NCBI RefSeq assembly: GCF_014132355.1
Contig: NZ_BLZO01000075.1
Span: 1-64,000, forward strand
DNA length: 64,000 nt
Direction: 5' to 3'
Source: Okeania sp. KiyG1
GTDB lineage: Bacteria; Cyanobacteriota; Cyanobacteriia; Cyanobacteriales; Microcoleaceae
Shown here piece after piece: positions 5,772-62,743 of this stretch; the first letter of the stretch is position 1, and each line of letters opens with the position of its first letter. A program made the translations under genes and the position numbers. The notes under the pieces are model-generated. The model did no database searches. It worked only from the letters and a program-made list of their open reading frames with translations, and was not told the DNA's origin.

Positions 5772-5930
5772 GATATTCCCTCATAAAAGTTAATTAGTTT
5801 ATCTATATTTTTCCTGGAAAGAGATAGTCCTGTATATGTACTAATAAAATTATGGTGAAGCGCTCGCCTACCAAATAAATTTTTAATTTTCAAGTAGACA
5901 TAAGTGCAATATTTCAGAGATTAATGTCAT

Positions 5931-6096
5931 TTCAGTTATCAGTTAGCCTCCTCCGGAGAAACTGCGCCCTTCAGTACCTCTGCCTGTTTGCGCAGCATTC
6001 CGCAGGAAAGCATCGGGATTGAAATATTGAATTTTATTTTATTTTATCCCCTTGAAAAGGGAGGCTTGAGACCTGATTTTTTGGTCAGAAATTGAT
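5931..6096 (-). repeat. PATE-like element, GAGGCTAACTG subfamily
   Basis: On the minus strand it reads TGACCAAAAAATCAGG, AAGCCTCCCTTTTCAAGGGG, a GC-rich middle with CTGCGCAAACAGG, and ends GAGGAGGCTAACTGATAACT. The spacer 5772-5930 beside it shows nothing. TAATTAT heptamers fill 6133-6170. Confidence 0.55.
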
Positions 6097-6170
6097 GGCT
6101 TATATCAAGATATCACTACATATAAAGAACCACCTAATTATTAATTATTAATTATTAATTATTAATTATT

Positions 6171-25139: not shown

Positions 25140-25501
25140 AAAGTTTATTCCTATTTTACAACTTTCTATATTAGAGGAATTCCTGCCAAAGTCTTATAAT
25201 ATCTAGTTTTTTCGTCAATTAATGCTTAAGTTGATATCTACTCCTATTGCATCATGGCCATTAATATTTTTATAACTCATAGCTTGACTGTTTCTGTTTT
25301 AACTTTTACACCAAATATGACGCGTTTGAATAATTAATTTTTTGGTGTTGAGCAAATGTGCTTATGGTTAAGATCGGGTTAATAACATAGAGAATTTTTG
25401 AGCTACAAAAATCTAAATTTTTAATAAAGAAAAAGTAGATTGCAATGGATAATCTGTTACTGATTGAATTAATTAATACTCCTTTAAAATTCTCTACAAT
25501 T
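25140..25501. promoter_or_regulatory. Upstream region of the DUF4347 array
   Basis: Divergent spacer between pgm and the first array gene. AT-rich, no mobile repeat, so it probably holds both promoters. An in-frame ATG at 25445 could extend the first gene by 19 residues, but the paralogues begin at MNQTKLLFIDSK (25502), which I prefer. Confidence 0.45.
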
Positions 25502-28156
25502 ATGAATCAAACCAAACTTTTATTCATCGACTCTAAGGTAGAAAATTACCATAATTTAATTTCAGAGATTGACCTTGATACAAAAGTATTTATTCTACAA
25601 CCCAATGGAAATGGTATAGACCAAATAGCTGAAAACTTAGGTAAATACCATCTGGTAGAGACAATTCATATTATTTCTCATGGGGCAAAAAATACTTTGT
25701 ACCTGGGAAACAGTATCTTGAATTTAGAAAATATTCATCTATATGCTGAGAGTATTCAACAGTGGGGCAAATGTTTGTCTGCTGATGGAGAAATATTAAT
25801 TTATGGTTGTCAGGTGGCAAGTGGTAAGGAAGGTAAAGAATTTGTCCGACAACTGCATCAACTCACAGGAGCAAATATTGCAGCATCAGAAACTCTGACT
25901 GGAAATGTAAGCAAAGGTGGTAACTGGAATTTAGAGGTAATATTTGGTCAACTCAAGTCAGCATTGGCATTTACCTCAGAAGTTAGGGCAACTTATGCAG
26001 GAGTATTGGCAAATATTGTGGTGGATACTACTGATGATGTAGTAGATAATGCTGATGGTGTGACATCTTTGCGGGAAGCAATTATTGAAGCAAACAATAC
26101 CCCCGAAGATGATACTATTCAATTAACGGCAGGAGAAACATATAATCTGACTATCTCAGGTAGTGATGAAGATGCTGCTGCTACCGGAGATTTAGATATT
26201 GTTGCTGGAGGTGGAGAAATAACAGTTATTTCACAAGGAGGAGAACAAGCTGTTATTGATGCTGGGGGTGAGAGTGGAATAGGCGATCGGGTGTTTCATG
26301 TTTTGGAAGGTGCTGCCCTAAAGTTGGATAATTTAGAAGTTACTAGAGGAGCAATAACTAGCGCTCCTAGTGGTGGTGGCATCTTCAACTACTCAGGTAC
26401 AGTTAGTATTAGCAACAGCACTATTAGCGGTAATTCAGCAACTTATGGTGGTGGTGGCATTGTCAACATATACGGCAGCGCCAGTATTAGCAACAGCACT
26501 ATTAGTGGTAATTTTGCTTTTAGCGGTGGTGGTATTCTCAACTCAGTAGATAGTACAGCAAGTATCAGCAACAGTATTATTAGTGGTAATTTTGCAAACT
26601 TCCCAAATGTAGGTAGTGGTGGAGGTATCAGCAACGATGGCACAGCAATTATCAGCGACAGCACTATCAGTGGCAATTCAGCAGATGATGATGGTGGTGG
26701 GATTGAAAACCTAGATGGCACAGCAATTATTAACGATAGCACTATCAGTGGCAATTCAGCAGATAATGGTGGTGGCATCTCTAACTTATTCTCTGGCACA
26801 GTTAGTATCAGTGATAGCATTATTAGTGGCAACTCAGCAAATAATGGTGGTGGTATTTATAACAAGCTAAATAGCACGCTCAGTATCAGCGACAGCACTA
26901 TTAGCGGTAACTCAGCAAATAATGGTGGTGGTATTTATAATAAGTTTTACAACTCAGCAGGTGTTACAATCAGTATCAGTAACAGCACTATTAGCGGTAA
27001 CTCAGCAAATAATGGAAGTGGTATATACAATTTAGCTGGTACAGCCATCATCAGCAACAGTACCATTACCAATAATGGTAATCCTTCAGACTCAGGAAGT
27101 GCCATTCTCCAAAAAGCTGATTTTAGAACAGTTTATACTCCTGATAATTACTACGACAAATCTTATTACGCCTCCACAACTATTACCTCTAGCATTGTAT
27201 CCGGTAATATCAATAGTGACGTTGAGTCTGTAGAAAGTAACAACCTCTTTATCAGTGGTGGCAACAATCTCATTGGTACAGGTAGCGCCATAAATGACTT
27301 CAACGGTAACAACGACCAAACAGGTATCACCAACCCTCTACTTGCAGACCTAGCAGACAACGGTGGCCCCACCTTCACCCATTTACCCCTCCCCAATAGT
27401 CCCGCCATTGATGCAGGCAGTAATCCCAATGCACTTACCACAGACCAACGAGGCGAACCACGGTTTGTAGGAGAGGGGGTTGATGTTGGTGCTGTAGAAT
27501 TACAAATTCCACTAGAAATTATTGGCATTCCTGAAAGCGAAGTCCTCAATGGTGCAGGTGAAAATGATACCATTACAGGTTTGGCAGGTAATGACACTAT
27601 TAATGGTCGTGGTGGTGATGACCAAATTATTGGTAGTCGAGGTAGCGACTTCCTCTTTGGAAAAAACGGCAACGATACCCTCCAAGGTCGTCAAGGTAAT
27701 GACTTCCTCTTTGGTGGTAATGGTAACGACTCTTTGGTAGGTGGTATTGGTCGCGATCGCTTCAATGGTGGTGCAGGCGACGATACTCTGACTGGTGGTG
27801 CTAGTATTGACCGTTTTATTTTCAATACAACTGATGAATTTAACTCAGATGATATTGGAGTAGATGACATTACTGACTTTGTTCCAGGACAAGATATTAT
27901 TCTCCTAGACAAAAGCACTTTTACTGAAATTACCAGTAACTCAGGAGTAGGTTTCAGCATTAATATTGAATTTGCTATAGTTACCAGTGATGCTGATGCT
28001 GAAACCTCAGAAGCATTCATTGTTTATAACAGTAACAACGGCAAATTGTTTTATAATGCCAATGGTACAGATGCAGAATTTGGCAGTGGTGGTGAATTTG
28101 CTAATCTCACGAATACCGCATCTATTAGTGAGGATGATTTCTTGCTCAGAGGATAA
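25502..28156 (+). CDS. DUF4347 / beta-helix / RTX surface protein, paralogue 1
   Basis: About 884 residues from the ATG at 25502. Domains in order: DUF4347 (about 1-165, LLFIDSKVENYHNLI, HIISHGAK, EILIYGCQVASGKEG, LTGANIAASE), a CSLREA-type segment (VVDNADGVTSLREAIIEAN), and about ten right-handed beta-helix coils with ISNSTISGNSA repeats. Then a choice-of-anchor Q block (DNGGPTFTHLPLPNSPAIDA), RTX nonapeptides (GGNGNDSLVGGIGRD) and a conserved tail ending ASISEDDFLLRG. DUF4347 is frequent at the N-terminus of giant cyanobacterial cell-surface proteins. RTX repeats imply calcium-dependent folding outside the cell, probably by type I export. No classical signal peptide is seen. Likely an adhesin or sheath protein, by inference. 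Confidence 0.85.
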   Translation: MNQTKLLFIDSKVENYHNLISEIDLDTKVFILQPNGNGIDQIAENLGKYHLVETIHIISHGAKNTLYLGNSILNLENIHLYAESIQQWGKCLSADGEILIYGCQVASGKEGKEFVRQLHQLTGANIAASETLTGNVSKGGNWNLEVIFGQLKSALAFTSEVRATYAGVLANIVVDTTDDVVDNADGVTSLREAIIEANNTPEDDTIQLTAGETYNLTISGSDEDAAATGDLDIVAGGGEITVISQGGEQAVIDAGGESGIGDRVFHVLEGAALKLDNLEVTRGAITSAPSGGGIFNYSGTVSISNSTISGNSATYGGGGIVNIYGSASISNSTISGNFAFSGGGILNSVDSTASISNSIISGNFANFPNVGSGGGISNDGTAIISDSTISGNSADDDGGGIENLDGTAIINDSTISGNSADNGGGISNLFSGTVSISDSIISGNSANNGGGIYNKLNSTLSISDSTISGNSANNGGGIYNKFYNSAGVTISISNSTISGNSANNGSGIYNLAGTAIISNSTITNNGNPSDSGSAILQKADFRTVYTPDNYYDKSYYASTTITSSIVSGNINSDVESVESNNLFISGGNNLIGTGSAINDFNGNNDQTGITNPLLADLADNGGPTFTHLPLPNSPAIDAGSNPNALTTDQRGEPRFVGEGVDVGAVELQIPLEIIGIPESEVLNGAGENDTITGLAGNDTINGRGGDDQIIGSRGSDFLFGKNGNDTLQGRQGNDFLFGGNGNDSLVGGIGRDRFNGGAGDDTLTGGASIDRFIFNTTDEFNSDDIGVDDITDFVPGQDIILLDKSTFTEITSNSGVGFSINIEFAIVTSDADAETSEAFIVYNSNNGKLFYNANGTDAEFGSGGEFANLTNTASISEDDFLLRG

Positions 28157-28246
28157 ACTCTTAACATAAAATAATATTAAGAAATTAGGAAATAATACAA
28201 AATGATGGTACATTATTGTAGTTTAACTCTACAACCATCCTAGATT

Positions 28247-30919
28247 ATGAATCAAACCAAACTTTTATTCATCGACTCTAAGGTAGAAAATTACCATCAT
28301 TTAATTTCAGAGGTCGATCTAAAGACAAGAATAGTTGTCCTAGAACCCAATCAAAATGGTATAGACAAAATATCTAAAAGTCTGGGTGAATGCTCTGATG
28401 TAGAGACAATTCATATTATTTCTCATGGGGCAAAAGGTGCTTTGTGTGTGGGAAATAGTCTCCTGAAAAATGACAATATTCATCTATATGCTGAGAATAT
28501 TCAACAGTGGGGCAAATCTTTATCTGCTGATGGAGAAATATTGATTTATGGTTGTCAGGTAGCAAGTGGTAAGGAAGGTAAAGAATTTGTCCGACAACTG
28601 CATCAACTCACAGGAGCAAATATTGCAGCCTCAGAAACACTTACTGGAAATGTTAGCAGAGGTGGTAACTGGAATTTAGAAGTAATATTTGGTCAACTCA
28701 AGTCAGCATTGGCATTTACACCAGAAGTTAGGGCAACTTATGCTGGGGTGTTGGCAAATATTGTGGTAGATACTACTAATGATGTAGTGGATAATAGTGA
28801 TGGAGTTACTTCTCTACGGGAAGCAATTATTGAGGCGAATAGTACACCGGAAGATGATACTATTCAACTGACAGCAGGAGCAACATATAATTTGACCATC
28901 TCAGGGAGTGATGAGGATGCTGCTGCTACCGGAGATTTAGATATTCTTGCTGGTGGTGGAGAAATAACAGTTATTTCACAAGGAGGAGAACAAGCTGTTA
29001 TTGATGCTGGGGGTGAAACAGGAATAGGCGATCGGGTGTTTCATGTTTTGGCAGATGGTGTCCTACAGTTGGAGAATGTAGAAATCACTCGTGGTTTTGT
29101 AAATAATGGTTCTGGTGGAGGAATCTTCAACTCAGGTACACTTACTATCAACAATAGCACTATTAGTGGCAATGATGGTGGTGGTATCAACAACTCATCA
29201 GGCAGAGCGAGCATAAACAATAGCACTATTAGTGGCAATGTTGTTTTTGCTTTTGGGGGTGGTATTCGTAACTATGATGGTGGCACAGTCAGTATCAACA
29301 ATAGCAATATTAGTGGCAATTTGAGTAGTGCTGGTGGTGGCGGCATCATCAACTCATCAGGCCAAGATGTAAGCAGCATTATCAATATCAACAATAGCAC
29401 TATTAGTGGTAACTCAGCAGGTATTAATGGTGGTGGCATCTACAACTCATCAGGCCTATATGGCACATCCATTATCAATATCAACAATAGCACTATTAGT
29501 GGCAATTCAGCATTTGCTGGTGGTGGTGTCGCCTCAAGAGGCGCAACCAGTATTAGCAATAGTACAATTACTAATAATGAAGCTATTGAAGAAGGAAGTG
29601 GTATTTTCCATGATATACTTGGTGTAACCCCTACTTCTATAGATGTAACCTCTAGCATTATTTCCGGTAATGTTAACACTGATGTTGATATTGATGCCGT
29701 AAGTAACGATAACTTTACCAGTGGTGGTAATAATCTAATTGGTACAGGTAACGCCATTGATGATTTTGACAGTGAGAACGACCTAGTAGGCATCACTGAC
29801 CCTCTACTTGGAGACCTAGCTGACAATGGTGGCCCCACTTTAACCCATTTACCTCTGCCCAATAGTCCTGCTATTGATGCAGGCAGTAATCCCAATGCAC
29901 TTGTCACAGACCAACGGGGGGAACCGCGATTAGCTGGTGAAGGGGTTGATATTGGTGCAGTAGAATTGCAGACTACACAAGAAATTATTGGCACTCCTGA
30001 AAGCGATCGCCTCAATGGCACAAATGAAAATGACACCATTACAGGTTTAGCAGGTAATGACACTATAGATGGTCGTGGAGGTGATGACAAAATCATAGGC
30101 GATCGAGGGAATGACTCCCTCTTGGGCAAAAACGGAAATGATACTCTTACTGGTGGTAATGGTCGCGACCGCCTCCTAGGTGGAAATGGTCGGGATGTTC
30201 TCAACGGTGGTGCAGGTAACGACAATCTCAATGGTGGCAACGACCGCGACCGCCTCCTAGGTGGAAATGGTCGGGATGTCCTCAACGGTGGTGCAGGTAA
30301 CGACAATCTCAATGGTGGCAACGACCGCGACCGCCTCCTAGGTGGAAATGGTCGGGATGTCCTCAAAGGTGGTGCAGGTAACGACAATCTCAATGGTGGT
30401 AATGGTCGCGACCGCCTCGTAGGTGGTAGCGGTCGGGATATTCTCAACGGTGGTGCAGGTAACGACAATCTCAATGGTGGTAATGGTCGCGACCGCCTCG
30501 TAGGTAGTAATGGTCTGGATGTTCTCAACGGTGGTGCAGGTAACGATACTCTGACTGGAGGAGCAGGTGTTGACCGTTTTATTTTCAATACAAATGATGA
30601 ATTTAACTCAGATGATATTGGAGTAGATGACATTACTGACTTTGTGCCAGAACAAGATAAAATTCTCCTAAACAAAAGCACGTTTACTGCTATTACCAGT
30701 GACTCAGGAACAGGTTTTAGTGTCAATGCTGAATTTGCTATAGTTACCAGTGACTCTGATGCCGAAACTTCAGAAGCATTTATTGTTTACAATAGCAACA
30801 ACGGTAAATTGTTCTACAATGCCAATGGTACAGCAGCAGAGTTTGGCAGTGGTGGTGAATTTGCTAATCTCACGAATACCGCATCTATTAGTGAGGATGA
30901 TTTCTTGCTCAGAGGATAA
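28247..30919 (+). CDS. DUF4347 / beta-helix / RTX surface protein, paralogue 2
   Basis: 890 residues with the same architecture as its upstream neighbour, 90 bases away. DUF4347 and CSLREA parts are nearly identical. The helix repeats (INNSTISGN) and the number of coils differ. The RTX part is longer, because an 81-bp unit is repeated five times (30164-30568). The last 110 residues and the following 60 bases (TAAACTCTTAACATAAAAT...) are almost the same as after paralogue 1, a sign of recent tandem duplication or gene conversion. The ATG is preceded by CCATCCTAGATT, with only a weak ribosome site. Large antisense frames over this gene are products of the repeat composition. Confidence 0.85.
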   Translation: MNQTKLLFIDSKVENYHHLISEVDLKTRIVVLEPNQNGIDKISKSLGECSDVETIHIISHGAKGALCVGNSLLKNDNIHLYAENIQQWGKSLSADGEILIYGCQVASGKEGKEFVRQLHQLTGANIAASETLTGNVSRGGNWNLEVIFGQLKSALAFTPEVRATYAGVLANIVVDTTNDVVDNSDGVTSLREAIIEANSTPEDDTIQLTAGATYNLTISGSDEDAAATGDLDILAGGGEITVISQGGEQAVIDAGGETGIGDRVFHVLADGVLQLENVEITRGFVNNGSGGGIFNSGTLTINNSTISGNDGGGINNSSGRASINNSTISGNVVFAFGGGIRNYDGGTVSINNSNISGNLSSAGGGGIINSSGQDVSSIININNSTISGNSAGINGGGIYNSSGLYGTSIININNSTISGNSAFAGGGVASRGATSISNSTITNNEAIEEGSGIFHDILGVTPTSIDVTSSIISGNVNTDVDIDAVSNDNFTSGGNNLIGTGNAIDDFDSENDLVGITDPLLGDLADNGGPTLTHLPLPNSPAIDAGSNPNALVTDQRGEPRLAGEGVDIGAVELQTTQEIIGTPESDRLNGTNENDTITGLAGNDTIDGRGGDDKIIGDRGNDSLLGKNGNDTLTGGNGRDRLLGGNGRDVLNGGAGNDNLNGGNDRDRLLGGNGRDVLNGGAGNDNLNGGNDRDRLLGGNGRDVLKGGAGNDNLNGGNGRDRLVGGSGRDILNGGAGNDNLNGGNGRDRLVGSNGLDVLNGGAGNDTLTGGAGVDRFIFNTNDEFNSDDIGVDDITDFVPEQDKILLNKSTFTAITSDSGTGFSVNAEFAIVTSDSDAETSEAFIVYNSNNGKLFYNANGTAAEFGSGGEFANLTNTASISEDDFLLRG
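30164..30568 (+). repeat. 81-bp in-frame RTX repeat, five units
   Basis: CGCGACCGCCTC recurs at 30164, 30245, 30326, 30407 and 30488. Each unit encodes 27 residues, GRDRLLGGNGRDVLNGGAGN followed by DNLNGGN, that is three RTX nonapeptides. Copies differ by few bases, so unit number may vary by slippage or recombination without breaking the frame. Confidence 0.95.
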
Positions 30920-31007
30920 ACTCTTAACATAAAATAATATTAAGAAATTAGGAAATAATACAAAATGATGGTATATTGTAGTTTTACTCTACAACCCTCC
31001 TAAGATT

Positions 31008-33527
31008 ATGAATCAAACCAAACTTTTATTCATTGACTCTAAGGTAGAAAATTACCATCATTTAATTCCAGAGGTCGATCGTCAGACAACAGTAGTTATC
31101 CTAGAACCCAATGGAAATGGTATAGACCAAATAGCTGAAAACTTAGGTAAATACCATCAGGTAGAGACAATTCATATTATTTCTCATGGGGCAAAAGGTG
31201 CTTTGTGTGTGGGAAATAGTATCCTGAAAAATGACAATATTCATCTATATGTTGAGAGTATTCAAAAGTGGGGCAAATGTTTGTCTGCTGATGGGGAAAT
31301 ATTGATTTATGGTTGTCAGGTAGCAAGTGGTAAGGAAGGTAAAGAATTTGTCCGACAACTGCATCAACTAACTGGAGCAAATATTGCTGCCTCGGAAACA
31401 CTTACTGGAAATGTTAGCAGAGGTGGTAACTGGAATTTAGAAGTAATATTTGGTCAACTCAAGTCAGCGTTGGCATTTACACCAGAAGTTAGGGCAAGTT
31501 ACGCTGGGGTGTTGGCAAATATTGTGGTAGATACTACTAATGATGTAGTGGATAATAGTGATGGAGTTACTTCTCTGCGGGAAGCAATTATTGAGGCGAA
31601 TAGTACACCGGAAGATGATACTATTCAACTGACAGCAGGAGCAACATATAATTTAACTATTGCAGGAAGTGAGGAAGATGCTGCTGCGACAGGAGATTTA
31701 GATATTGTTGTTGGTGGTGGAGAAATAACAGTTATTTCAGAGGGAGGAGAACAAGCTGTTATTGATGCTGGGGGTGAAACTGGAATAGGCGATCGGGTGT
31801 TTGATGTTTTGGAAGATGCTGCCCTACAGTTGGAAAATGTAGCAATCACTGGTGGTAGTGGTATCACCAATAACTCAGGTACACTTACTATCAACAATAG
31901 CACTATTAGTGGCAGTGATGGTAGTGGTATCTTCTCAATTTTTGGCACAGTCAGTATCAACAATAGCACTATTAGTGGCAATTATTCAACTGGCGTTGGT
32001 GGTGCTGGCGGTATCACCAATAACTCAGGTACACTTACTATCAACAATAGCACTATTAGTGGCAATTCAGCTTCTAGTGGTGGTGGTCTCTCCAGCCTAG
32101 GTGTAAGTGCTACAGTCAGTATCAACAATAGCATTATTAGTGGCAATTCAGTTTCTGGTGGTGCTACTGGTGCTAGTCGTGGTGCTGGTATTTGGCTAGG
32201 AAGTGGTACACTTACTATCAACAATAGCACTATTAGCGACAATTCAGCGTCTTCTAGTGGTGGTGGTATCTTCTTATTTGGTGGTACAGCGAGTATCAAC
32301 AATAGCACTATTAGTGGCAATTCAGCTTCTGGTGGTGGTGGTATCTCCTTAGATCGTGGTATACTTACTATTAACCATAGCACTATTAGTAGCAATTCAG
32401 CTTCTAGGGGTGGTGGTATCGACAACGTCTTTGGCACAGCCAGTATTAGCAATAGTACAATTACTAATAATGAAGCTGATGCAGGTCGAGGAAGTGGTAT
32501 TTTCCACAATAATCTAACTGATACAAATCCTAACTCTACTAATGTAACCTCTAGCATTGTTTCTGGTAATGTTAACACTGATATTGAGATTGATGCTGTA
32601 ATCAGTACTGAGATTGATGTCGTAAGTAACGATAGCTTTACCAGTGATGGTAATAATCTAATTGGTGCAGGTAACGTCATTAATGTTTTTAATGGCGACA
32701 ACGACCAAGTAGGCATCACTGACCCTCTACTGGGAGACTTAGCTGACAATGGTGGCCCTACCTTAACCCATTTACCTCTCCCCAATAGTCCTGCTATTGA
32801 TGCGGGCAGTAATCCCAACGCACAGACCACAGACCAACGGGGGGAACCGCGATTAGCTGGTGCAGGGGTTGATATTGGTGCTGTGGAATTGCAAATTATA
32901 CAGGAAATCACTGGCACTGCTGAAGCAGATATTCTCAATGGTACAATAGAACAAGATACCATTTTTGGGTTAGATGGTAACGATGTAATTAATGGTTTAG
33001 ATGATGACGATGTTTTATTTGGTAATCGAGACCTAGATACTCTCAACGGGGATGCAGGTAACGACACAATTTATGGTGGTAGAGATGGGGATTTAGTTTT
33101 TGGCAACATAGGGGAAGATTTTCTCAGGGGAGATAGAGGTAGTGACTCAATTTTTGGTCAGGAAGATAACGACACAATTTTTGGTGGTAGAGATAATGAT
33201 TTTGTAGATGGGGGTTTTGGTGACGATTCAATATCAGGGGATCTAGGTAGCGATACCTTAAGTGGAGGTCAAGGAATAGATACCCTCAGTGGTGGTGGCG
33301 ATGCTGATATTTTTCAATTAGCTGTTGGGGAAGGTTTAGATATTATCACCGACTTTACTGATGGTATAGATTTGATTCAATTACCAGATTTTCTAAGTTT
33401 TAGTGACCTGGGAATCAGTCAAACAGATGACAATAGCACGTTAATTACTGTAACTGATAATGGTGAAGAATTAGCCTTGTTAAATAATATTTCAGCATCG
33501 TTAATTACAGAAACAGATTTTGTTTGA
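31008..33527 (+). CDS. DUF4347 / beta-helix / RTX surface protein, paralogue 3 with different C-terminus
   Basis: 839 residues. The DUF4347, CSLREA, beta-helix and choice-of-anchor Q (LPLPNSPAIDAGSNPNAQTT) parts follow the array pattern. After about residue 640 the RTX block is of another type (GRDGDLVFGNIGEDFLRGDR then GSDSIFGQEDNDTIFGG), and the end is FQLAVGEGLDIITDFTDGID, IQLPDFLSFSDLGISQ and ASLITETDFV. This replaces the DDFLLRG tail of the other three. This C-terminal block is usual in many cyanobacterial RTX proteins, so the gene looks like a chimera made by recombination in the RTX repeats. Spacing from paralogue 2 is 88 bases with a nearly identical spacer. Confidence 0.85.
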   Translation: MNQTKLLFIDSKVENYHHLIPEVDRQTTVVILEPNGNGIDQIAENLGKYHQVETIHIISHGAKGALCVGNSILKNDNIHLYVESIQKWGKCLSADGEILIYGCQVASGKEGKEFVRQLHQLTGANIAASETLTGNVSRGGNWNLEVIFGQLKSALAFTPEVRASYAGVLANIVVDTTNDVVDNSDGVTSLREAIIEANSTPEDDTIQLTAGATYNLTIAGSEEDAAATGDLDIVVGGGEITVISEGGEQAVIDAGGETGIGDRVFDVLEDAALQLENVAITGGSGITNNSGTLTINNSTISGSDGSGIFSIFGTVSINNSTISGNYSTGVGGAGGITNNSGTLTINNSTISGNSASSGGGLSSLGVSATVSINNSIISGNSVSGGATGASRGAGIWLGSGTLTINNSTISDNSASSSGGGIFLFGGTASINNSTISGNSASGGGGISLDRGILTINHSTISSNSASRGGGIDNVFGTASISNSTITNNEADAGRGSGIFHNNLTDTNPNSTNVTSSIVSGNVNTDIEIDAVISTEIDVVSNDSFTSDGNNLIGAGNVINVFNGDNDQVGITDPLLGDLADNGGPTLTHLPLPNSPAIDAGSNPNAQTTDQRGEPRLAGAGVDIGAVELQIIQEITGTAEADILNGTIEQDTIFGLDGNDVINGLDDDDVLFGNRDLDTLNGDAGNDTIYGGRDGDLVFGNIGEDFLRGDRGSDSIFGQEDNDTIFGGRDNDFVDGGFGDDSISGDLGSDTLSGGQGIDTLSGGGDADIFQLAVGEGLDIITDFTDGIDLIQLPDFLSFSDLGISQTDDNSTLITVTDNGEELALLNNISASLITETDFV

Positions 33528-45221: not shown

Positions 45222-47036
45222 ATGAAAATCACTAGCCCTTATGCAAAAAATGATCGAGTTAACCACACTGCAACTACTAGAATTCTGATTGTTGAAGATG
45301 AGTTAATTGTAGCAGAAAACCTAAAAATGGTTTTACAAAAACTAGGCTATGAAATTGTCGGAGTTGTTCACTCTGGAGAAGAAGTAATACAACAGGTTGC
45401 GAAAACAAATCCAGATGTGATCCTCATGGATATCATGCTTCAAGGCGAGATTGACGGAATTACAGCAGCAGCAAAAATATACCAACAATTCCAGTCTCCA
45501 GTAATTTTTACTACAGCCTATGATGACGATGATACCATCGAACGAGCAAAACATACACACCCCTATGGTTATCTCATCAAACCTTTTCAAATCGCAAACT
45601 TAAAAACTACTATAGAGATGACATTGCAAAAACACCAGTCAGTTGTTGCTACCAAAGCAGAATATACTGGTAAACTTGAAGATGCTTACCAAAAGTTAGA
45701 GCGTTTGCACAAGTATGATCCACTGACCAACCTACCCACTAGGAAAGTTTTGCAAAGTATGTTTGAAGAGATAGTAGATACATTATCAAACCCAGTAGTG
45801 AACGACCGCTCTCATTTACACCAATCTCTCTACATACCAGTATTTTGTCTGAGTATCGATCGCTTCTATCGAATCTACCAATACATGGATCATCAAGAAA
45901 CTGACTATTTGTTGCAAGCTGTGGCCAAGCGAATTGTTGAGGTAGTAGGAAAAAATAATGTTGTTGCCCGTACAGATATTAATGAGTTTATCCTAATTTT
46001 GGAGCCTGTTGAGTATTTAGGTCAAGCTAGCGAAATTGCTAAATGCGTATTAAAAACGGTCGCCGATTCTTATATTATTGGAGAGCGAGAAGTTTTTCTC
46101 ACAGCCAGCCTTGGTGGAGCGCTCTATCCTCGTGACAGCAACAGTTTTCTTTCTTTATTACAAGATTGTCATTTAGTCATGCAAAAAGCCCAAGATCAAG
46201 GAGGAAACCGTCATCAATTCCATAGCTCACAGGGTAAAACCAACAATACTAACTTGTTAGCTCTAGAAACAGATTTACATTATGCGATCGACCGCGAACA
46301 ACTGCAGCTTTATTATCAACCGAAAGTAGACCTAAAAACAGGTAAAATTTCTGGTGCTGAAGCTCTCTTGCGTTGGCAGCACCCACAGTCAGGTTTCATA
46401 TCTCCAGCAAGATTTATTCCTCTAGCAGAAGCTACTGGTTTGATTGAAACTATTGGGGAATGGGTATTAGAAAATGCCTGCAAACAACTCCAAGTATGGA
46501 AAGAAGATGAGCTGCTCAAAGACTTTAAAGTAGCTGTTAACATTTCAAGTTATCAACTTCGACAACCTCTGTTACAGCATAAGTTTTCCAAAATATTACT
46601 AAATCACCAACTCAGTGCTAATTTTATAGAATTGGAGTTGACTGAAAGTGCTTTAGTGGAAGATATCGATTTAGCCCAGCAACAGCTAGAAGCTTTCAAA
46701 ACTCTAGGACTGAATCTAGCGATCGATGATTTTGGCACTGGTTATTCGTCTTTGAGCTATCTCTACAGATTTCCTTTTGATACTCTGAAGCTCGACCGTT
46801 CATTTTTATCCAATATTCACAAGCATTCTAAGAACAGAGCTATTGTGATTGCAATGATTCAGATGGCACGTCAACTAGAGCTTACTGTTGTAGCAGAAGG
46901 AGTGGAAACAGAAGAAGAACTAGCATTCTTGCAAAAACACCATTGTGATATGATTCAGGGTTATCTTTTTAGTCCTCCTATTTCTGCACAGGCATTTTAC
47001 GAATTAGTGCATCAGGGAAAAATTTTGCCTATATAG
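45222..47036 (+). CDS. Response regulator with degenerate GGDEF and intact EAL domain
   Basis: 604 residues. REC (about 18-135) has the acid pair Glu25-Asp26, phospho-acceptor Asp70 (VILMDIMLQG) and Lys120 (YLIKPF). A GGDEF-like domain follows (about 165-335), but the signature is replaced by ARTDINEFILIL, so cyclase activity is unlikely. The EAL domain (about 345-600) keeps EALLRW, NISSYQL, ELTESAL, IDDFGTGYSS, LKLDRSF, VAEGVET and QGYLFSPP, all residues needed to hydrolyse cyclic-di-GMP. GGAG lies nine bases before the ATG. With the HisKA_2 kinase gene just upstream it forms a two-gene unit that should lower cyclic-di-GMP on stimulus, an inference from the domains. Confidence 0.9.
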   Translation: MKITSPYAKNDRVNHTATTRILIVEDELIVAENLKMVLQKLGYEIVGVVHSGEEVIQQVAKTNPDVILMDIMLQGEIDGITAAAKIYQQFQSPVIFTTAYDDDDTIERAKHTHPYGYLIKPFQIANLKTTIEMTLQKHQSVVATKAEYTGKLEDAYQKLERLHKYDPLTNLPTRKVLQSMFEEIVDTLSNPVVNDRSHLHQSLYIPVFCLSIDRFYRIYQYMDHQETDYLLQAVAKRIVEVVGKNNVVARTDINEFILILEPVEYLGQASEIAKCVLKTVADSYIIGEREVFLTASLGGALYPRDSNSFLSLLQDCHLVMQKAQDQGGNRHQFHSSQGKTNNTNLLALETDLHYAIDREQLQLYYQPKVDLKTGKISGAEALLRWQHPQSGFISPARFIPLAEATGLIETIGEWVLENACKQLQVWKEDELLKDFKVAVNISSYQLRQPLLQHKFSKILLNHQLSANFIELELTESALVEDIDLAQQQLEAFKTLGLNLAIDDFGTGYSSLSYLYRFPFDTLKLDRSFLSNIHKHSKNRAIVIAMIQMARQLELTVVAEGVETEEELAFLQKHHCDMIQGYLFSPPISAQAFYELVHQGKILPI

Positions 47037-52760: not shown

Positions 52761-55700
52761 CTACGACTCATCTGGCAAATCTAAGGGTTGTGGATAACTA
52801 ATTCCATAACCTTGACCATAGTCTACACCTATAGTCTTAATTTTCTCTAAGATATCACGATTGCTCACAAACTCAGCAATCGTTTTGAGACCCATCACAT
52901 GGCCAATCCGATTCATTCCCTCAACTATTGCATAATCTAAGGGGTCGCTAACAATATCCTTGACAAAACTACCATCAATTTTTAAGTAATCTACAGGCAA
53001 ATTTTTCAGATAAGTAAAAGAAGAAACTCCACTACCAAAGTCATCTAGAGCAAAACAACAACCCAAATCTTTAAGCTGTTTAATTAATTTAGCTGCTTGA
53101 GATAGATTAGCGATCGCCACTGTCTCAGTAATCTCAAAACATATCATCTGTGGAGAAATATTAAACCTGTCTAATTCTGCTTGTAAAAAAGTAACAAATT
53201 CCTGGTCATTAACCGTTTCACCAGAAAGATTAATTGCATAAATAGTATCTGTTTTACTTATATCTGACTCCCCAAACAATCTCTCATTATCAAGATCCTC
53301 AAAAGATGGTTGCAACTGACCTTGGAGCTGTGACAAATAACTAAAAAAGTTTTGAATCACCCAACGGTCAATCATTGGCATCAGATTATATCTTTCTGCT
53401 GCCGGAAGAAAGGCCATTGGCGGAATTAAGTTATCTGTTTCATCTCTTAAGCGTAAAAGTATCTCATAATAAAAATTATTCAGATGCGAATTTGCCAATG
53501 GTGCAACAGGTTGATAATACAAACAGAAAAGATTTTGTTCGCAAGCTTGATGAATTTTTGTTACCCAATGTACAGTATTTTTTTGCTGCTTCAAATCTGA
53601 ATCATCAGTTTCGTAAACCTGAAAACGATTTCGGCCTCTATTTTTGGCCACATAACAAGCAGCATCAGCAGCACTGAGCAGCCAATTAACATCATTGATC
53701 ACACCTGCCTGACTGAGATTTTCCTGACTCAGAGTAATCATACCCATACTAACACCAATATTAAAAGTTTTATCCTCCCATACAAATCTGTAATCCTGAA
53801 TACTATCAATTAACTTTTGCACTACTTTTTGAGCATTATCCATGTCGCACTTTAATAATAGCAAAGCAAATTCATCTCCACCGATCCGAGCTAAAATATC
53901 TGCTTGACGGCATTGAGATTGTAATAGAGTGGTAACCTGGCGCAACAATTCATCCCCAGCTTTATGACCACAGGTATCATTAACAATTTTAAATCGATCT
54001 AAGTCTATATAAGCAAGAGTATGTACTTGATTGTTTTGATTCACTTCCTCCAAAGAATTTTCTAAATATTTCTCAAATTCTCTGCGGTTTAACAACCCTG
54101 TTAGAGAATCATGTTGAGCTTGCCAAAATATTTGATTTCTCAACTTGCGCTTGTCTGTCACATCTCGAAATACTAACACTGCTCCTAAGATTTGATCGTC
54201 TTCTGTTTTGATAGGAGCAGCAGAATCTTCTATTGCATATTCTTGACCATCACTAGCCACCAAAAGAGTATGATTTCCCAGTTCGACAATTTGCCCGTCT
54301 CGGAAAACTATATCTACCGGACTTTCCATTGGTGTGCGGTCTTGCTCATCAAAAATTTGGAAAATCTCAGATAGTGGCAAACCTTTAGCTACTGATAACT
54401 CCCATCCAGTAAGTTTTTCAGCAATGGGATTCAGATAATCAACATAACCTTTGTCATCAGTAGTAATCACCCCATCACCGATAGATTTTAATGTAATTTC
54501 GGCTAGTTCTTTTTCTTGAAACAGAGCCAACTCCATCTGTTTGCGTTCTGTAATATCTTCAAAAATACCAGCCGTGCGGTATATTTCTCCAGTTCGATCG
54601 CGTACAGGAAAAGCACGACTCCAAATCCAGCGCATTTCACCATCAGGCCGTACAATTCGATACTCATCGTCAGTAAACTCACCACGCCGTTGTTTTTCAT
54701 CATCCAAAACAAAACTATCGCGGTCTAATGGATGAATGCTATTTATAACTGTTTCTCGCCATTGGTCTAAATTTGTAATGGAGCGCCCCCAAACATATTC
54801 ATAAGTGGGACTGACGTAGATTGACTCATTTTTGTCAAGGGTGGTTATCCAAAAAACCTCTCGGATATTTTCGGCAATTTGACGGAAATTTTCCTCGCTA
54901 GACCTCAGAGAATTCTGAGTTTTTTGTCGTTCGATCGCTGTACCTAATATATTAGCTACTGCCTGCAAAAAATAAACATCATCCTGAGTGAACCACCACT
55001 TCATTTTAGTATGTATAGCTAGTATCCCATAAGGTTTTTGTTTTTCACCCCCAGGAATAATGACGCTGACTCCAGAAATAATTCCATGTTCATGCAGTAG
55101 TTTTGGCGCTCTGAATCTGGTTTCAAAACGAAGGTCTTGAACAATTACAGGTTTAGATGATTTTAGGGTATAACCTGCTTGAGTCTCACTGCCAGCACTT
55201 ACGAGCGCAAAACCTACAAGTCCTTCTTGCCAACCAACACCAGCTCGTAATAGTAAAGAATTGCTATCAGGTAACAGTTGGAGAATCTTGCAGTATTCTC
55301 CATCTAATATTTGAGCAACTATTTGTACTATCTCATCCATCAGTAGAGAAATATTTTTACCTGATAAGGCTTTTTGAGTAATTTGAGCCACAGCTCGCTG
55401 CTGTCTAATTCGATTTTTACAAGCTTGAGTAATCAGTCTTAATTGGGAGGTTTGCTCTGTAACTCGTGTTTCTAATTCAGCATTGAGAATAGAAAGTTGT
55501 TTTTCTACCTGTTTGTTATCCGTGATATCGTGACCTTCGGAAATTAATAGGATCACCTGTCCAAGTTCGTTAAAAACTGGCTTGAGAGAAAAGTCGATGG
55601 TAATTGTTTGTTCATATTGACCAACTACCATAACTTCATAACGTACAAATTCACCTATGACTGCTTTAGCGATCGCTTTTCTCATTTGTTTTTTAGCAAG

Positions 55701-56726
55701 TCTATGTTTAGTTTCTCTGTTTCTAGGATGTTCTTCATCATCCACTGCTAACCACCATTTAACTTGCCAAAAAAAATGTCCGACAATTTCTTCATGTTTG
55801 AGACCAGTAAAATCTAAAAATGTCTGATTAGCTTCTAAAATAGTACCGTCTGGGTTTAAAAGTCCCATAAATTGAAATGTTTGATTAAAAACAGCCTGGA
55901 AGCGTCTTTCGCTTTCTCGGATAGCTGTAATATCTCGACCCACTGCTTGATACTCTACTAAGTTATTGTCTTCGTCAAATATTGCTCGATTTGTCCATTC
56001 GTGCCACCTCCACTCTCCGTTGGGCATTTCTATTACTTGTTCATTGATAATTGCTGGCTGTTCTGGGGTCAGAGTATCTAATAGTTTTTGTAGCTTTACA
56101 ACCTCGAAAGATGGTAAAAACTTATAAAAACTTATCCCAATTAGCTGTTCTGGTGTTGTGTCAAAATAGCGACAGTAAGCATCGTTGACAAAATTCAAAA
56201 TTCCCTCTGGATAAAAACGACAAATCAATTCTGTTTGGTCTTGGACTATGGCACGATATTGACTTTCACTTTTTCGTAGTGCTTCTTCTATATCTTTGCG
56301 TTCTTTAATTTCTGATTCTAAAGTTTCGTTAATTATTGTTAATTTGGATGGGCTTGGTAATTCTAATGCTTGGGGAATCAGAGAATACATTTCCAGGGCT
56401 GTGTATAGGGAAATCATTACTGTTATTGCTTTGAGACCTCCTAATAACCAATAGGCGGGATGCCACAAAGTCCAAACTTTCAGGAGATGGACTGTACCAC
56501 AAGAAGCAATAAAAGCCCCAAACATCCAGAAGATCCGTTTAAAGGGTATATCCTTTCGTTGACGGACAAAGTACATTAACATGAATGATATGGAGTAGTA
56601 AGCTATTGCTGTTAATGCGTTTGAGGTAGCGTGTAGCAAAATTAAGCCTGATTTCCAAAGATAGCATTGTCCATAGGGCATTAATTGTTCTGGGGAAAAT
56701 ATGTTTTGTATTAATTGCCAAATCAT
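52761..56726 (-). CDS. Ethylene-receptor-like sensor with PAS/GAF domains and GGDEF-EAL output
   Basis: 1321 residues. Residues 1-125 are three membrane helices like the ethylene-binding domain of plant ETR1 and cyanobacterial Etr1: IAYYSISFMLMYFV and FGAFIASCGTVHLLKVWTLW. The copper ligands are kept (Cys76, His80, matching ETR1 Cys65/His69), as are Tyr43, Ile46 and Ile73. ETR1 Asp25 is Asn36 and Pro36 is Ser47. Then come PAS (about 150-270), PAS (275-405), coiled coil, GAF (440-605), PAS (610-735), PAS (740-865), GGDEF (about 865-1030, intact RIGGDEFALLL) and EAL (about 1060-1315: YEILLRL, NLSGETV, EITETVAI, LDDFGSG, LKIDGSF, QGYGISYP). Both output domains look competent. It probably makes or breaks cyclic-di-GMP in response to a membrane-sensed signal. 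Confidence 0.9.
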   Translation of the reverse strand: MIWQLIQNIFSPEQLMPYGQCYLWKSGLILLHATSNALTAIAYYSISFMLMYFVRQRKDIPFKRIFWMFGAFIASCGTVHLLKVWTLWHPAYWLLGGLKAITVMISLYTALEMYSLIPQALELPSPSKLTIINETLESEIKERKDIEEALRKSESQYRAIVQDQTELICRFYPEGILNFVNDAYCRYFDTTPEQLIGISFYKFLPSFEVVKLQKLLDTLTPEQPAIINEQVIEMPNGEWRWHEWTNRAIFDEDNNLVEYQAVGRDITAIRESERRFQAVFNQTFQFMGLLNPDGTILEANQTFLDFTGLKHEEIVGHFFWQVKWWLAVDDEEHPRNRETKHRLAKKQMRKAIAKAVIGEFVRYEVMVVGQYEQTITIDFSLKPVFNELGQVILLISEGHDITDNKQVEKQLSILNAELETRVTEQTSQLRLITQACKNRIRQQRAVAQITQKALSGKNISLLMDEIVQIVAQILDGEYCKILQLLPDSNSLLLRAGVGWQEGLVGFALVSAGSETQAGYTLKSSKPVIVQDLRFETRFRAPKLLHEHGIISGVSVIIPGGEKQKPYGILAIHTKMKWWFTQDDVYFLQAVANILGTAIERQKTQNSLRSSEENFRQIAENIREVFWITTLDKNESIYVSPTYEYVWGRSITNLDQWRETVINSIHPLDRDSFVLDDEKQRRGEFTDDEYRIVRPDGEMRWIWSRAFPVRDRTGEIYRTAGIFEDITERKQMELALFQEKELAEITLKSIGDGVITTDDKGYVDYLNPIAEKLTGWELSVAKGLPLSEIFQIFDEQDRTPMESPVDIVFRDGQIVELGNHTLLVASDGQEYAIEDSAAPIKTEDDQILGAVLVFRDVTDKRKLRNQIFWQAQHDSLTGLLNRREFEKYLENSLEEVNQNNQVHTLAYIDLDRFKIVNDTCGHKAGDELLRQVTTLLQSQCRQADILARIGGDEFALLLLKCDMDNAQKVVQKLIDSIQDYRFVWEDKTFNIGVSMGMITLSQENLSQAGVINDVNWLLSAADAACYVAKNRGRNRFQVYETDDSDLKQQKNTVHWVTKIHQACEQNLFCLYYQPVAPLANSHLNNFYYEILLRLRDETDNLIPPMAFLPAAERYNLMPMIDRWVIQNFFSYLSQLQGQLQPSFEDLDNERLFGESDISKTDTIYAINLSGETVNDQEFVTFLQAELDRFNISPQMICFEITETVAIANLSQAAKLIKQLKDLGCCFALDDFGSGVSSFTYLKNLPVDYLKIDGSFVKDIVSDPLDYAIVEGMNRIGHVMGLKTIAEFVSNRDILEKIKTIGVDYGQGYGISYPQPLDLPDES

Positions 56727-59748: not shown

Positions 59749-61008
59749 CTACTTCCCTACTCCCCTACTCCCTATACCCCGATCGCTTAAATTATTTACC
59801 GTAGCAGCTACATCAATACCAGTAGTTTGTTTAAACTCCTCAAGAAAGGCAGCCATTTTTGTCGCATTGTTCCCACCTTGAGCATTAATTACGGTAACAT
59901 TATCCACATCAACTTCTGGCACAGTAGATACCATAATCTTCAGCAACTCTTCCAATTTCTGATACAGAAAAACTTCTCGTGCGTTTGCACCAGCAGCTTT
60001 CCAAGATTCTGCCAACTTCTTAATACCCTCTGCTTGTGCCTTCCCTGGTTCGACAATAGCAGCAGCATCGCCCTTAGCACTAGCGATCGCTCGCTTACAT
60101 TCAGCTTCTGCGGGAGCAACTACATCTGCCTGTAACTGTTGTTCTACCTGCTTAATACGCTCATTCTGCACTGCTACTTCAGCTTGAGTCCGCGCCACCT
60201 CTGACCCAATATCAGCCTCTGCTTCGGCCACCACTGCTTGCCGTTTTGTCACAGCATCTTGAATGCGTCTTTCAGCTTCTGCACGAGCTACAGCAATTTT
60301 CGTTTCAATCTGTTTGAAAGAAGTATTCTTTTTGTTCTCTGCTTCTTTAACAATTGATTCTGCCTGGGTTTGTGCTTCTGCAATACGAGAATCTCGCAAC
60401 AGTTCAGCCTGTTGTTTTCGGCCAATAGAATCAAGATATCCTACATCATCAGCAATATTCTGAATTTGGAGAGTATCCAAAACTAAACCTAATTTTTCTA
60501 GGTCGTCTTCTGCTTCTTCCAGCAAGCTTTTAGCAAAAGCAATTTTGTCTTCATTGACTTGTTCTGGTGTCAGAGAAGCTAACACACCACGCAAATTTCC
60601 TTCTAGAGTTTCCTGGGCTAATTTTTCAATTTCCTGACGAGTTTTGCCTAGCAGACGCTCGATCGCGTTGTGAATAGTAGGTTCTTCGCCAGCAATTTTG
60701 ATATTTGCCACACTCTCGACTGTGAGAGGAATACCACCTTTAGAATAAGCATTATTAACCTTGAGTTCAATAATCATATTACTCAAGTCCATGCGGAAAG
60801 CTTGTTCTAACAGGGGGACGCGAATGCTACTACCTCCCTTGACGAGACGGTATCCAACTTTTTGATCGCTGTCTCCAACATGGTGACGACTTCCAGAAAA
60901 AATTAGGACTTCACTTGGTTGACAAATATAATAAAGGTTGCGAATGACAAAGACACCAGCACCAGTACCAAGACCGAAAACTCCCAATAATGCTAATACT
61001 ATTTCCAT
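59749..61008 (-). CDS. Flotillin-family (SPFH/band 7) protein, downstream copy
   Basis: 419 residues. Membrane helix at the very start (IVLALLGVFGLGTGAGVFVI), then the SPFH domain (PSEVLIFSGSRHHVGDSDQK, GYRLVKGGSSIRVPLLEQAF, NAYSKGGIPLTVESVANIKI). A long alanine/glutamate-rich coiled coil follows (about 215-345, AEAERRIQDAVTKRQAVVAE), and a C-terminal conserved part (YQKLEELLKIMVSTVPEVDV). Flotillins oligomerise at membranes, organise lipid microdomains and are regularly encoded beside NfeD proteins. GGAG precedes the ATG by ten bases. It is separated from its paralogue by a repeat-filled 367-base spacer, which weakens but does not exclude co-transcription. Confidence 0.9.
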   Translation of the reverse strand: MEIVLALLGVFGLGTGAGVFVIRNLYYICQPSEVLIFSGSRHHVGDSDQKVGYRLVKGGSSIRVPLLEQAFRMDLSNMIIELKVNNAYSKGGIPLTVESVANIKIAGEEPTIHNAIERLLGKTRQEIEKLAQETLEGNLRGVLASLTPEQVNEDKIAFAKSLLEEAEDDLEKLGLVLDTLQIQNIADDVGYLDSIGRKQQAELLRDSRIAEAQTQAESIVKEAENKKNTSFKQIETKIAVARAEAERRIQDAVTKRQAVVAEAEADIGSEVARTQAEVAVQNERIKQVEQQLQADVVAPAEAECKRAIASAKGDAAAIVEPGKAQAEGIKKLAESWKAAGANAREVFLYQKLEELLKIMVSTVPEVDVDNVTVINAQGGNNATKMAAFLEEFKQTTGIDVAATVNNLSDRGIGSRGVGK

Positions 61009-61375
61009 GATTTTTTTGACTCCGTTATTTTAGTTGTTTAAGAAGGAAGAGGGAAGAAGGAAGAAGGAAGAGGAGGACAAGAAGACAAGGGAGAAGAAAG
61101 AGGGAAGAGGGAAGAAGGAAGAGGAGGACAAGAAGACAAGGGAGAAAAAAGCTCTACTTATGGGGAGGGCAAATGCCATTCGCCCCTACAAATGGTGATA
61201 GAATCTGGTTATATAGTATATGTTTATAACTATACTCCCCTGCTCCCCTGCTCCCCTACTCCCCAGGGGAGGGCGAATGCCATTCGCCCCTACAAATGGT
61301 GATAGAATCTGGTTATATAGTATATGTTTATAACTATACTCCTCTACTCCCCTGCTCCCCGACTCCCCTACTCCC
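61009..61375. repeat. Direct repeats between the two flotillin genes
   Basis: GGAAGAAGGAAGAGG-type runs (61042-61150), and a ~110-base direct repeat: GGGAGGGCAAATGCCATTCG ... GGTTATATAGTATATG (about 61158-61230) and again from about 61262 to 61332. Each is followed by CTCCCCTGCTCCCC heptamer-like runs. Confidence 0.7.
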
Positions 61376-62743
61376 TTACTCCCCTACTGCTCTACTCCCA
61401 TTCCTGAAATTACCTGTCACATCAACGCCCAGGGTTTGATTAACATTTTTGAGGAACTGGCGGAAGATTTCAGGATAAGCATTTACCAAACTAGCGATCG
61501 ACTTGCCATCTCCACTATCGATAACTTTGATATTTTCCAATTTAACTTGCTCTGTCACTTTCGCAGACTCGCGTAAAATCATACTAATTTGTTGTAAGTA
61601 GAACAACTCCGCGGCATCTTTACCAGTTTCTTGCCAAACTTGGGAAAGCATATCGTTAACTAACGCTTCAGCTTGAGCATTTTCTGATAGAGAAGCAGCA
61701 TTTCCCTTAGAACGGAGTTCTTTTGCTTGTCGTTGTGCTTCTGCTGGCAATACTTCATCTGCTTCTAAACGCAACCTCTCTAACTCAGCGCGGACTGTTT
61801 GCAATAATTGTTCTGCTCTTGCCCTTGCTTCTTTAGCTGCTGCTTTGGTTCGTTCTTCTTCCGAACGTGCTTGCTGTTCCAATTCTGCTTGAATTTTACG
61901 GAGTTCGTTTTCTTTCTGGACGATAAATGTTTCTGACTGAGTTTTGGCAATTTCTGACTGTCGTTGGCAGTCAGCTTCTATTTGGTCTGCTTCTGCTTTG
62001 GCGTTAGACTCAGCTATTTCAGCATCTCGACGGATCATGGCAATTTGTTTGCGACCAATTGAGTTTAGGTAGTCTACGTCATCGGAAACGCTTTGAATTT
62101 TCAGAATGTCGAGTTGTAGGCCCAATTTTGCTAAGTCGCGACTCACGTCTTCGGCAATACGTTCGGCAAATTGGAGACGGTCTTCGTTTAGTTGTTCTGG
62201 GGTCAGGGTGGCAACTACACCCCGCAGGTTTCCTTCTAGGGTTTCTCTTGCTACACGGGTAATTTCTGAGCGGTCGCGGTCGAGAAATCTTTCTATGGCA
62301 TTGCCTACTATTTTGGGGTCATTGGAAACTTTGATATTGGCGATCGCTTGAATATTTAGTGGAGTACCGCCTTTGGAGTAAGCATTCCGCACTTCTACAG
62401 GTACTGGCATTGTGCGTAGGTCCATTGTTTTAGTTGTTTCCAGAATTGGGATGGGAATTGCTCGGCCACCGAAGATTACACGATAACCCACTGTTTCTCC
62501 TTCTTTTGTCTTCCGTTTTCGACCGGATAAAATTAGAATTTCATTGGGTTTACAAATTTGTATGAATGTGTTGATAAACCAGATTAATACTATCACTCCA
62601 AATATAGATAGAGCGATGGGTAAACCTGTAGAAATTTTTCCTGTAAAATCCTGAATTGGCTCCCTTTGTATTACAGGAGGAACTTGTGCTATTTCTACAG
62701 TGGTTAATTCGGCTTGATTGGATTCTAAAATTTTACTTTTCAT
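61376..62743 (-). CDS. Flotillin-family (SPFH/band 7) protein, upstream copy
   Basis: 455 residues. It is a clear paralogue of the downstream protein but has a longer N-terminus before the membrane helix (LPIALSIFGVIVLIWFINTF, about 41-60). SPFH: PNEILILSGRKRKTKEGETV, GYRVIFGGRAIPIPILETTK, NAYSKGGTPLNIQAIANIKV. The coiled coil (about 245-345) is richer in Glu/Gln/Arg (EEERTKAAAKEARARAEQLL). C-terminal: LQQISMILRESAKVTEQVKL and LENIKVIDSGDGKS. GAGGAAA lies nine bases before the ATG. The two paralogues may form hetero-oligomers, an inference from their pairing and the shared NfeD-like genes upstream. Confidence 0.9.
   Translation of the reverse strand: MKSKILESNQAELTTVEIAQVPPVIQREPIQDFTGKISTGLPIALSIFGVIVLIWFINTFIQICKPNEILILSGRKRKTKEGETVGYRVIFGGRAIPIPILETTKTMDLRTMPVPVEVRNAYSKGGTPLNIQAIANIKVSNDPKIVGNAIERFLDRDRSEITRVARETLEGNLRGVVATLTPEQLNEDRLQFAERIAEDVSRDLAKLGLQLDILKIQSVSDDVDYLNSIGRKQIAMIRRDAEIAESNAKAEADQIEADCQRQSEIAKTQSETFIVQKENELRKIQAELEQQARSEEERTKAAAKEARARAEQLLQTVRAELERLRLEADEVLPAEAQRQAKELRSKGNAASLSENAQAEALVNDMLSQVWQETGKDAAELFYLQQISMILRESAKVTEQVKLENIKVIDSGDGKSIASLVNAYPEIFRQFLKNVNQTLGVDVTGNFRNGSRAVGE

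Follow-up and report, generated by a model that had tools for sequence, protein, structure and literature searches.

One reverse-strand gene in the window, the 64,000-nucleotide stretch analysed here from a contig of the marine filamentous cyanobacterium Okeania sp. KiyG1, joins an N-terminal membrane domain of the ethylene-receptor type to a series of PAS and GAF modules and a GGDEF-EAL end (Table 1). The open reading frame, its strand and its coordinates are as the first-pass annotation, made from the sequence alone, had given them, and Pfam domain calls bear out the succession of PAS/GAF modules followed by GGDEF and EAL. The Pfam ETR1_N match (PF25487) spans residues 28–123 and scores 124 bits, against a curated cut-off of 27. 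The two output domains had been called intact-looking; their motifs are indeed intact, both by inspection and in alignment with the phosphodiesterase RbdA. On inspection, no chromophore cysteine motif is recognisable in the GAF domain.

Table 1. Position of the gene, its domains and its binding-site residues in the window.
Feature	Position	Strand	Remarks
Whole gene, 1321 aa	52761..56726	-	Ethylene-binding domain, PAS, PAS, GAF, PAS, PAS, GGDEF, EAL
N-terminal ethylene-binding-type membrane domain, residues 1-129	56340..56726	-	PF25487 ETR1_N, 124 bits
Predicted helix 1, residues 26-56, with Asn36, Tyr43, Ile46, Ser47	56559..56651	-	AlphaFold2 model
Codon AAC, Asn36 = ETR1 Asp25 (GAC in 4/4 Okeania orthologues)	56619..56621	-	One assembly
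Codon TCA, Ser47 = ETR1 Pro36 (CCA or CCG in four Okeania orthologues)	56586..56588	-	One assembly
Predicted helix 2, residues 63-88, with Ile73, Cys76, His80	56463..56540	-	AlphaFold2 model
Cys76 = ETR1 Cys65, copper ligand	56499..56501	-	
His80 = ETR1 His69, copper ligand	56487..56489	-	
Predicted helix 3, residues 92-122, with Lys99 (ETR1 Lys91)	56361..56453	-	Alignment and AlphaFold2 model
PAS1 and PAS2, about residues 151-403	55518..56276	-	
GAF domain, residues 462-598	54933..55343	-	PF01590
PAS3 and PAS4, residues 636-860	54147..54821	-	
GGDEF domain, residues 870-1034	53625..54119	-	GGDEF motif and upstream RxxD (RQAD), read from sequence
EAL domain, residues 1058-1312	52791..53555	-	EAL motif reads EIL; same catalytic residues as RbdA

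The resemblance of the sensor domain to ETR1 is not a matter of chance: against the ETR1 N-terminus the local alignment scores 152, and the highest of 500 shuffles reaches 62. The alignment had been described as 125 residues without gaps at a constant offset of 11; the offset holds over ETR1 residues 23–76, but a three-residue gap follows, so that helix 3 runs at an offset of 8 and the lysine at ETR1 position 91 is conserved, as Lys99. As the first-pass annotation had claimed, Cys76, His80, Tyr43, Ile46 and Ile73 are retained, while Asn36 stands for Asp25 and Ser47 for Pro36. Five of the seven residues reported essential in ETR1 are present and D25 and P36 are altered, the set being D25, I35, P36, I62, C65 and H69, as named in papers, together with Y32 (these sites carry their ETR1 numbers below). 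An AlphaFold2 model of the domain (mean pLDDT 84.5) has three predicted transmembrane helices bearing the expected residues, the counterparts of Cys65 and His69 both lying on helix 2; a sequence search for a solved ethylene-binding domain structure yielded none, its one match being at chance level (E 1).

At the other end of the protein, PAS4-GGDEF-EAL (the last 580 residues or so) matches RbdA with an E value of 7.3e-168 over chain residues 7–563 of 568, and the catalytic residues of the two align; the likely output, judged from this match, is therefore breakdown of cyclic di-GMP. RbdA (PA0861 of Pseudomonas aeruginosa; PDB 5XGB, 5XGD and 5XGE) is a biofilm-dispersal phosphodiesterase that has the PAS-GGDEF-EAL arrangement in common with the window protein, although its solved part does not match the N-terminal sensor, and the enzyme activity of the window protein is putative. 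The phosphodiesterase activity of RbdA is reported to be GTP-stimulated (PMC10294637, PMC10874727, both in part), although PMC10294637 found no significant effect of GTP in its own work.

Both exchanges in the binding site are specific to this lineage. Relatives of the N-terminal domain occur in 57 of the 62 genomes of the family that were searched (the window genome included), and full-length syntenic orthologues, 86–91% identical, are present in four of the five other Okeania genomes, all of them keeping Asp and Pro. On the tree L040 is sister to the window protein (support 97/95), and the change at Asp25 and Pro36 is placed on the terminal branch of the window genome; both residues would have been lost in this species since its split from the nearest sampled relative, at a synonymous divergence of about 0.17.

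We think it somewhat probable that the gene encodes a low-affinity, copper-dependent sensor of the ETR1 type, mounted on a membrane-bound cyclic-di-GMP enzyme of Okeania and weakened by the recent Asp25→Asn and Pro36→Ser changes. An ethylene-receptor-type sensor wired to cyclic di-GMP, as first proposed, is supported by homology; the weaker binding then suggested draws support from homology and from the reported effect of the same exchange in ETR1, where, according to a 2026 review, the receptor stays functional after Asp→Asn at an affinity reduced about 100-fold; the review adds that there are natural variants (PMC13012798, in part). In outline, a copper ion held by Cys76 and His80 would bind ethylene, the resulting rearrangement would pass through the coil and the PAS/GAF stack, and the RbdA-like PAS-GGDEF-EAL end would then alter net cyclic-di-GMP turnover, most likely as a phosphodiesterase with GGDEF serving as a GTP-binding regulator. 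By analogy with the engineered receptor, what remains would be a folded, copper-competent protein whose affinity for ethylene is roughly 100-fold or more lower. Pro36 is among the residues reported essential in ETR1 (PMC6586836, in part), so Asn and Ser together may abolish binding instead of weakening it; the protein is best read, from its sequence and this analogy, as an ethylene sensor that has been weakened, and possibly silenced, in nature.

Outright loss of ethylene binding, with the two changes marking early decay of an unneeded input and the enzyme left to its PAS/GAF inputs or to a fixed rate, is possible but on the whole unlikely. Two of the seven residues are, after all, altered, and other radical changes specific to the window protein lie nearby (H18Y, S64R and E83K), although two of these sites are freely variable across the family, a 151-row tree placing 47 changes at position 64 and 31 at position 83. 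Damage is also found in sister lineages within the clade: Pro36 is altered in three of the seven members of the orthologue clade, L046 having Pro36→Ala and a connection from helix 1 to helix 2 that is six residues shorter, and G003 having Pro36→Ser and an in-frame stop, a pattern that suggests decay over tuning; within the window genome itself, neither copper ligand survives in the paralogue C82 (L009). Nonsynonymous and synonymous changes in the domain number 9:3 on the window branch and 4:8 on the L040 branch, small counts whose excess of amino-acid change is itself small and only suggestive of relaxed selection. Against decay stand the intact equivalents of Cys65, His69, Tyr32, Ile35, Ile62 and Lys91, the intact reading frame and output motifs, and the frequency with which Pro36 is missing from domains that keep Asp25.

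That frequency comes from a survey of 234 distinct cyanobacterial ethylene-binding domains, a non-random sample in which most entries had been selected because they matched the window domain, L040 or an Asn query best. A domain sequence found more than once entered the counts a single time, and a match had to cover at least 90 of the 129 columns. The counts also omit L001–L005 and L140, loci of the window genome already represented by others, and L186 and L303, which have short fillers (10 and 2 bases); L197–L201 have no ethylene-binding domain. All seven residues are kept in 202 of the 234. Asp25 is kept in 225 and replaced by Asn in nine, a figure that is not a prevalence because the sample was picked by best match, and that went from 1/151 to 4/211 to 9/234 as sampling grew. 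Asn variants reportedly exist, according to an abstract by Azhar. In the other eight Asn25 domains the output is a histidine kinase, and C65, H69, Y32, I35 and P36 are unchanged. The Asn25 state takes a minimum of six changes on a quick tree, many of whose forks are weak; two of the eight come from different species of a single genus (L259 and L292), and four more, from four families (L228, L304, L261 and L285), belong to a clade of five (SH-aLRT 93) whose remaining member, L241, keeps Asp. Asn therefore looks tolerated, not merely broken. Pro36 is replaced in 21 domains, 20 of them among the 225 with Asp25, so its loss is fairly common; Asn25 together with an altered Pro36 is found in the window protein alone.

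These counts bear on two further readings. That the protein is an ordinary high-affinity ethylene receptor in which Asn36 and Ser47 are neutral seems quite improbable: Pro36 does vary, and Asp and Asn are chemically close, but Asp25 is nearly always kept and its mutation eliminates or strongly reduces binding in ETR1 (PMC11819568, PMC13012798, both in part). More improbable still is that the site now takes another ligand, whether copper itself, CO or a small alkene other than ethylene. The two exchanges do lie along the ligand site, which retains its copper ligands, and the Asn/Ser combination is singular in the survey, yet no conserved clade carries it, Asp25→Asn ETR1 is reported still to be an ethylene receptor (PMC13012798, in part) and a simpler explanation exists; the changed ligand raised at first pass found no support in this analysis. 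Nor does the Asn/Ser variant form a clade of its own with GGDEF-EAL output, as had been envisaged, given the Asp/Pro state of the four Okeania orthologues and the kinase outputs and retained Pro36 of the other Asn25 domains. Cyclic-di-GMP outputs are not more often coupled to altered sites (3 of 16, against 26 of 172 kinases; p 0.72, leaving out 46 of the 234 with unassigned output). Lys91 is lost in five of nine Asn25 domains and 30 of 225 others (p 0.005 by simple table); we do not claim covariation, because pairing on the tree (four independent pairs on supported branches) gave no support.

The putative ethylene-to-cyclic-di-GMP sensor is, from its sequence, a variant on known ethylene receptors, both its binding and its enzyme activity being predicted. 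With Arabidopsis ETR1 it shares the three-helix domain, the Cys/His copper ligands and the Lys91 equivalent, and with the engineered Asp25→Asn ETR1 (Azhar 2023 and Aman 2025, via PMC13012798, in part) the same exchange; it differs in being bacterial, in having GGDEF-EAL in place of the histidine kinase, in its altered Pro36 and in its numbering (+11 in helices 1–2). The bacterial ethylene receptors described in the passages cited here signal through two-component parts. Synechocystis SynEtr1/UirS (Slr1212) is likewise cyanobacterial and likewise couples an ethylene-binding domain to a cytoplasmic signalling part, but it is a histidine kinase and UV-A photoreceptor (PMC5812497, PMC6682694, both in part), whereas the window protein ends in cyclic-di-GMP domains. 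Azospirillum AzoEtr1 affects biofilm formation (PMC11819568, in part); unlike the window protein it is of two-component type, and its D35 and C75 correspond to D25 and C65. Geitlerinema GeiEtr2, a cyanobacterial ethylene-binding protein, is grouped with a gene predicted to encode a diguanylate cyclase domain (PMC6682694, in part), but that domain lies in the neighbouring gene, unfused, and all seven residues are kept. None of the matches listed in literature searches, seen in part, describes an ethylene-binding domain fused to GGDEF or EAL, which is weak evidence of absence.

A receptor writing straight into cyclic di-GMP would connect ethylene with biofilm or motility through a single protein, and the Okeania pair, one gene 91% identical between species with Asp/Pro in one and Asn/Ser in the other, would offer a natural mutant pair for the study of affinity tuning. 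The recurrence of Asn25 in cyanobacteria suggests that such tuning may be used repeatedly. A bolder reading, less likely than not, is that cyanobacteria repeatedly retune their ethylene receptors through Asp25→Asn, and that in one Okeania species this struck a direct cyclic-di-GMP writer, producing a gas sensor desensitised (or re-aimed) in nature alongside paralogues with intact sites and a matched pair with a sister species. Ethylene-domain/GGDEF fusions themselves recur (16 of the 234 domains), and ten cyanobacterial proteins—L071 of Aphanothece, L079 of Iningainema, L170, L171, L127, L153, L174, L234, L260 and L295—have the same wiring of sensor to messenger, EAL being present in some. Nine of them keep all seven residues, L295 having Cys65→Tyr and Pro36→Ser. 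Together with the Okeania group they do not form one clade on the best trees, which call for 8 to 11 changes, and on one tree at least three of these are forced by well-supported branches.

The ethylene-receptor-type protein, whose domains are listed in the table below, begins with a domain that aligns to ETR1 with a local score of 152, against a maximum of 62 over 500 shuffles. The gapless alignment at a constant offset of 11 described in the first-pass annotation extends to ETR1 residue 76; a three-residue gap follows, giving an offset of 8 in helix 3 and pairing ETR1 Lys91 with Lys99. That one correction aside, its observation stands: alignment and codons agree that Asp25 of ETR1 is Asn36 (AAC) and Pro36 is Ser47 (TCA), and the alignment retains the equivalents of Tyr32, Ile35, Ile62, Cys65 and His69. 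An AlphaFold2 model (53 sequences, mean pLDDT 84.5) predicts helices at residues 26–56, bearing Asn36, Tyr43 and Ser47; 63–88, bearing Ile73, Cys76 and His80; and 92–122, bearing Lys99, placing Cys76/His80 as in ETR1 at the level of helix assignment.

Table. The ethylene-receptor-type gene and its encoded domains
Feature	Position	Strand	Basis or content
Whole ORF	52761-56726	-	1321 residues encoded
ETR1_N	residues 28-123		Pfam, above curated cut-off
Four PAS stretches and one GAF			Pfam, above curated cut-offs
GGDEF	residues 870-1034		Pfam, above curated cut-off
EAL	residues 1058-1312		Pfam, above curated cut-off

Passages of PMC11819568 state that mutating C65 or D25 abolishes binding in ETR1 and predict that D25 positions H69 and contacts K91, whereas an excerpt of PMC13012798, specific to Asn, differs on the severity of D25 loss, describing an Asp-to-Asn ETR1 that still functions at roughly 100-fold reduced affinity, and reporting variants in nature. 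Judged by its residues, the window domain is an Asn variant of this kind with a Pro36 change added, and the published precedent makes weakened ethylene binding likelier than a new ligand. The earlier interpretation is right in part: weaker binding is plausible; a changed ligand and a separate Asn/Ser clade find no support. At the two positions the four Okeania orthologues all carry Asp (codon GAC) and Pro (codon CCA or CCG). What we say of this protein past its sequence, phylogeny and fold, we infer. The main rival is complete loss of ethylene binding, because Pro36 is counted among the essential residues and sister lineages bear damage: L046 (G056), itself altered at Pro36, is missing six residues between its first two helices and has an EAL part broken at an ambiguous base, and L023 (G003) has an in-frame TAA.

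Full-length orthologues, 86–91% identical, occur in four of five other Okeania genomes (G041–G044), each with an aminopeptidase and/or SLT gene in the same fetched stretch. Domain and PAS-GAF queries did not find one in G040, where the best domain match has E 2.4e-26 and the best PAS-GAF match spans the GAF end only. On a 151-domain tree the window protein and its nearest orthologue, L040 (synonymous divergence 0.17), are sisters (support 97/95) within a clade of five Okeania proteins (100/95), to which L046 and L023 attach (99/95); Pro36 is altered in three of these seven. Within residues 1–129 the window protein departs from the four orthologues at 7 of 102 positions invariant among them (H18Y, S34T, D36N, P47S, S64R, E83K and A103V). 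The protein, a fusion of sensor to c-di-GMP output, is a candidate natural affinity mutant confined to this species, with a sister orthologue for comparison.

Matches to the ethylene-binding domain occur in 57 of the 62 family genomes searched, including its own. Among 234 distinct domains, picked largely by similarity, all seven site residues are intact in 202; position 25 holds Asp in 225 and Asn in nine, position 36 Pro in 213, position 65 Cys in 231 and position 69 His in 232. The eight other Asn25 domains (L259, L292, L228, L304, L261, L285, L293 and L306) all have histidine-kinase outputs and retain Pro36; L306 alone among them has Val for Ile62, and one clade of five includes four of them, drawn from four families. 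Asn25 requires at least six changes on a quick 234-domain tree with many weak forks, and three on an earlier 211-domain tree with four Asn rows. On the 151-row tree (median 15 changes per column) Pro36 calls for 12, Asp25 for one, and Tyr32 and Ile35 for none: Pro36 drifts, Asp25 rarely. The window genome encodes five ethylene-receptor-type proteins, the other four with kinase outputs. One paralogous histidine kinase (L009; G000:C82, about 4186-6675, -) has lost both copper ligands by profile alignment (Cys65 to Ser, His69 to Tyr), with Pro36 as Ala and Asp25 retained.

Outputs among the 234 domains comprise 172 kinases, ten GGDEF plus EAL and six GGDEF only; 46 are unclassed, the fetched stretch ending or the output going unrecognised. 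On the 151-row tree the c-di-GMP outputs take eight changes, of which well-supported branches force no fewer than three. One GGDEF-output domain (L295; G130:C40) has Cys65 to Tyr and Pro36 to Ser. Residues 733–1319 of the window protein match the phosphodiesterase RbdA (PA0861; 5XGB, 5XGD, 5XGE; E 7.3e-168) across its solved PAS-GGDEF-EAL region; the GGDEF motif lines up with it, as do the acidic, Asn, Lys and Gln catalytic residues of the EAL domain. Published accounts describe RbdA as a phosphodiesterase with activity reported to increase with GTP; PMC10294637 finds the GTP effect not significant. The window genome (10.98 Mb, 198 contigs) has 26 GGDEF matches, some partial. Of two c-di-GMP-binding families, ComFB has four matches across three ORFs and PilZ one.

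The gene is flanked by an ORF at 57434, which we take to be leucyl aminopeptidase-like, and an SLT-domain gene at 49907 (Pfam). A second c-di-GMP gene of the window, a response regulator-GGDEF-EAL (45222-47036, +), follows two sensor genes (39255 and 42360) that carry GAF/Cache and kinase domains. Three tandem large ORFs (25445-33527, +; 903, 890 and 839 aa) each combine an N-terminal DUF4347 with RTX calcium-binding repeats. Two adjacent flotillin-like ORFs lie at 59749-62743 (-), the first with a Band_7 match and the second with 39% resemblance to the first's orthologue at another locus, L041.
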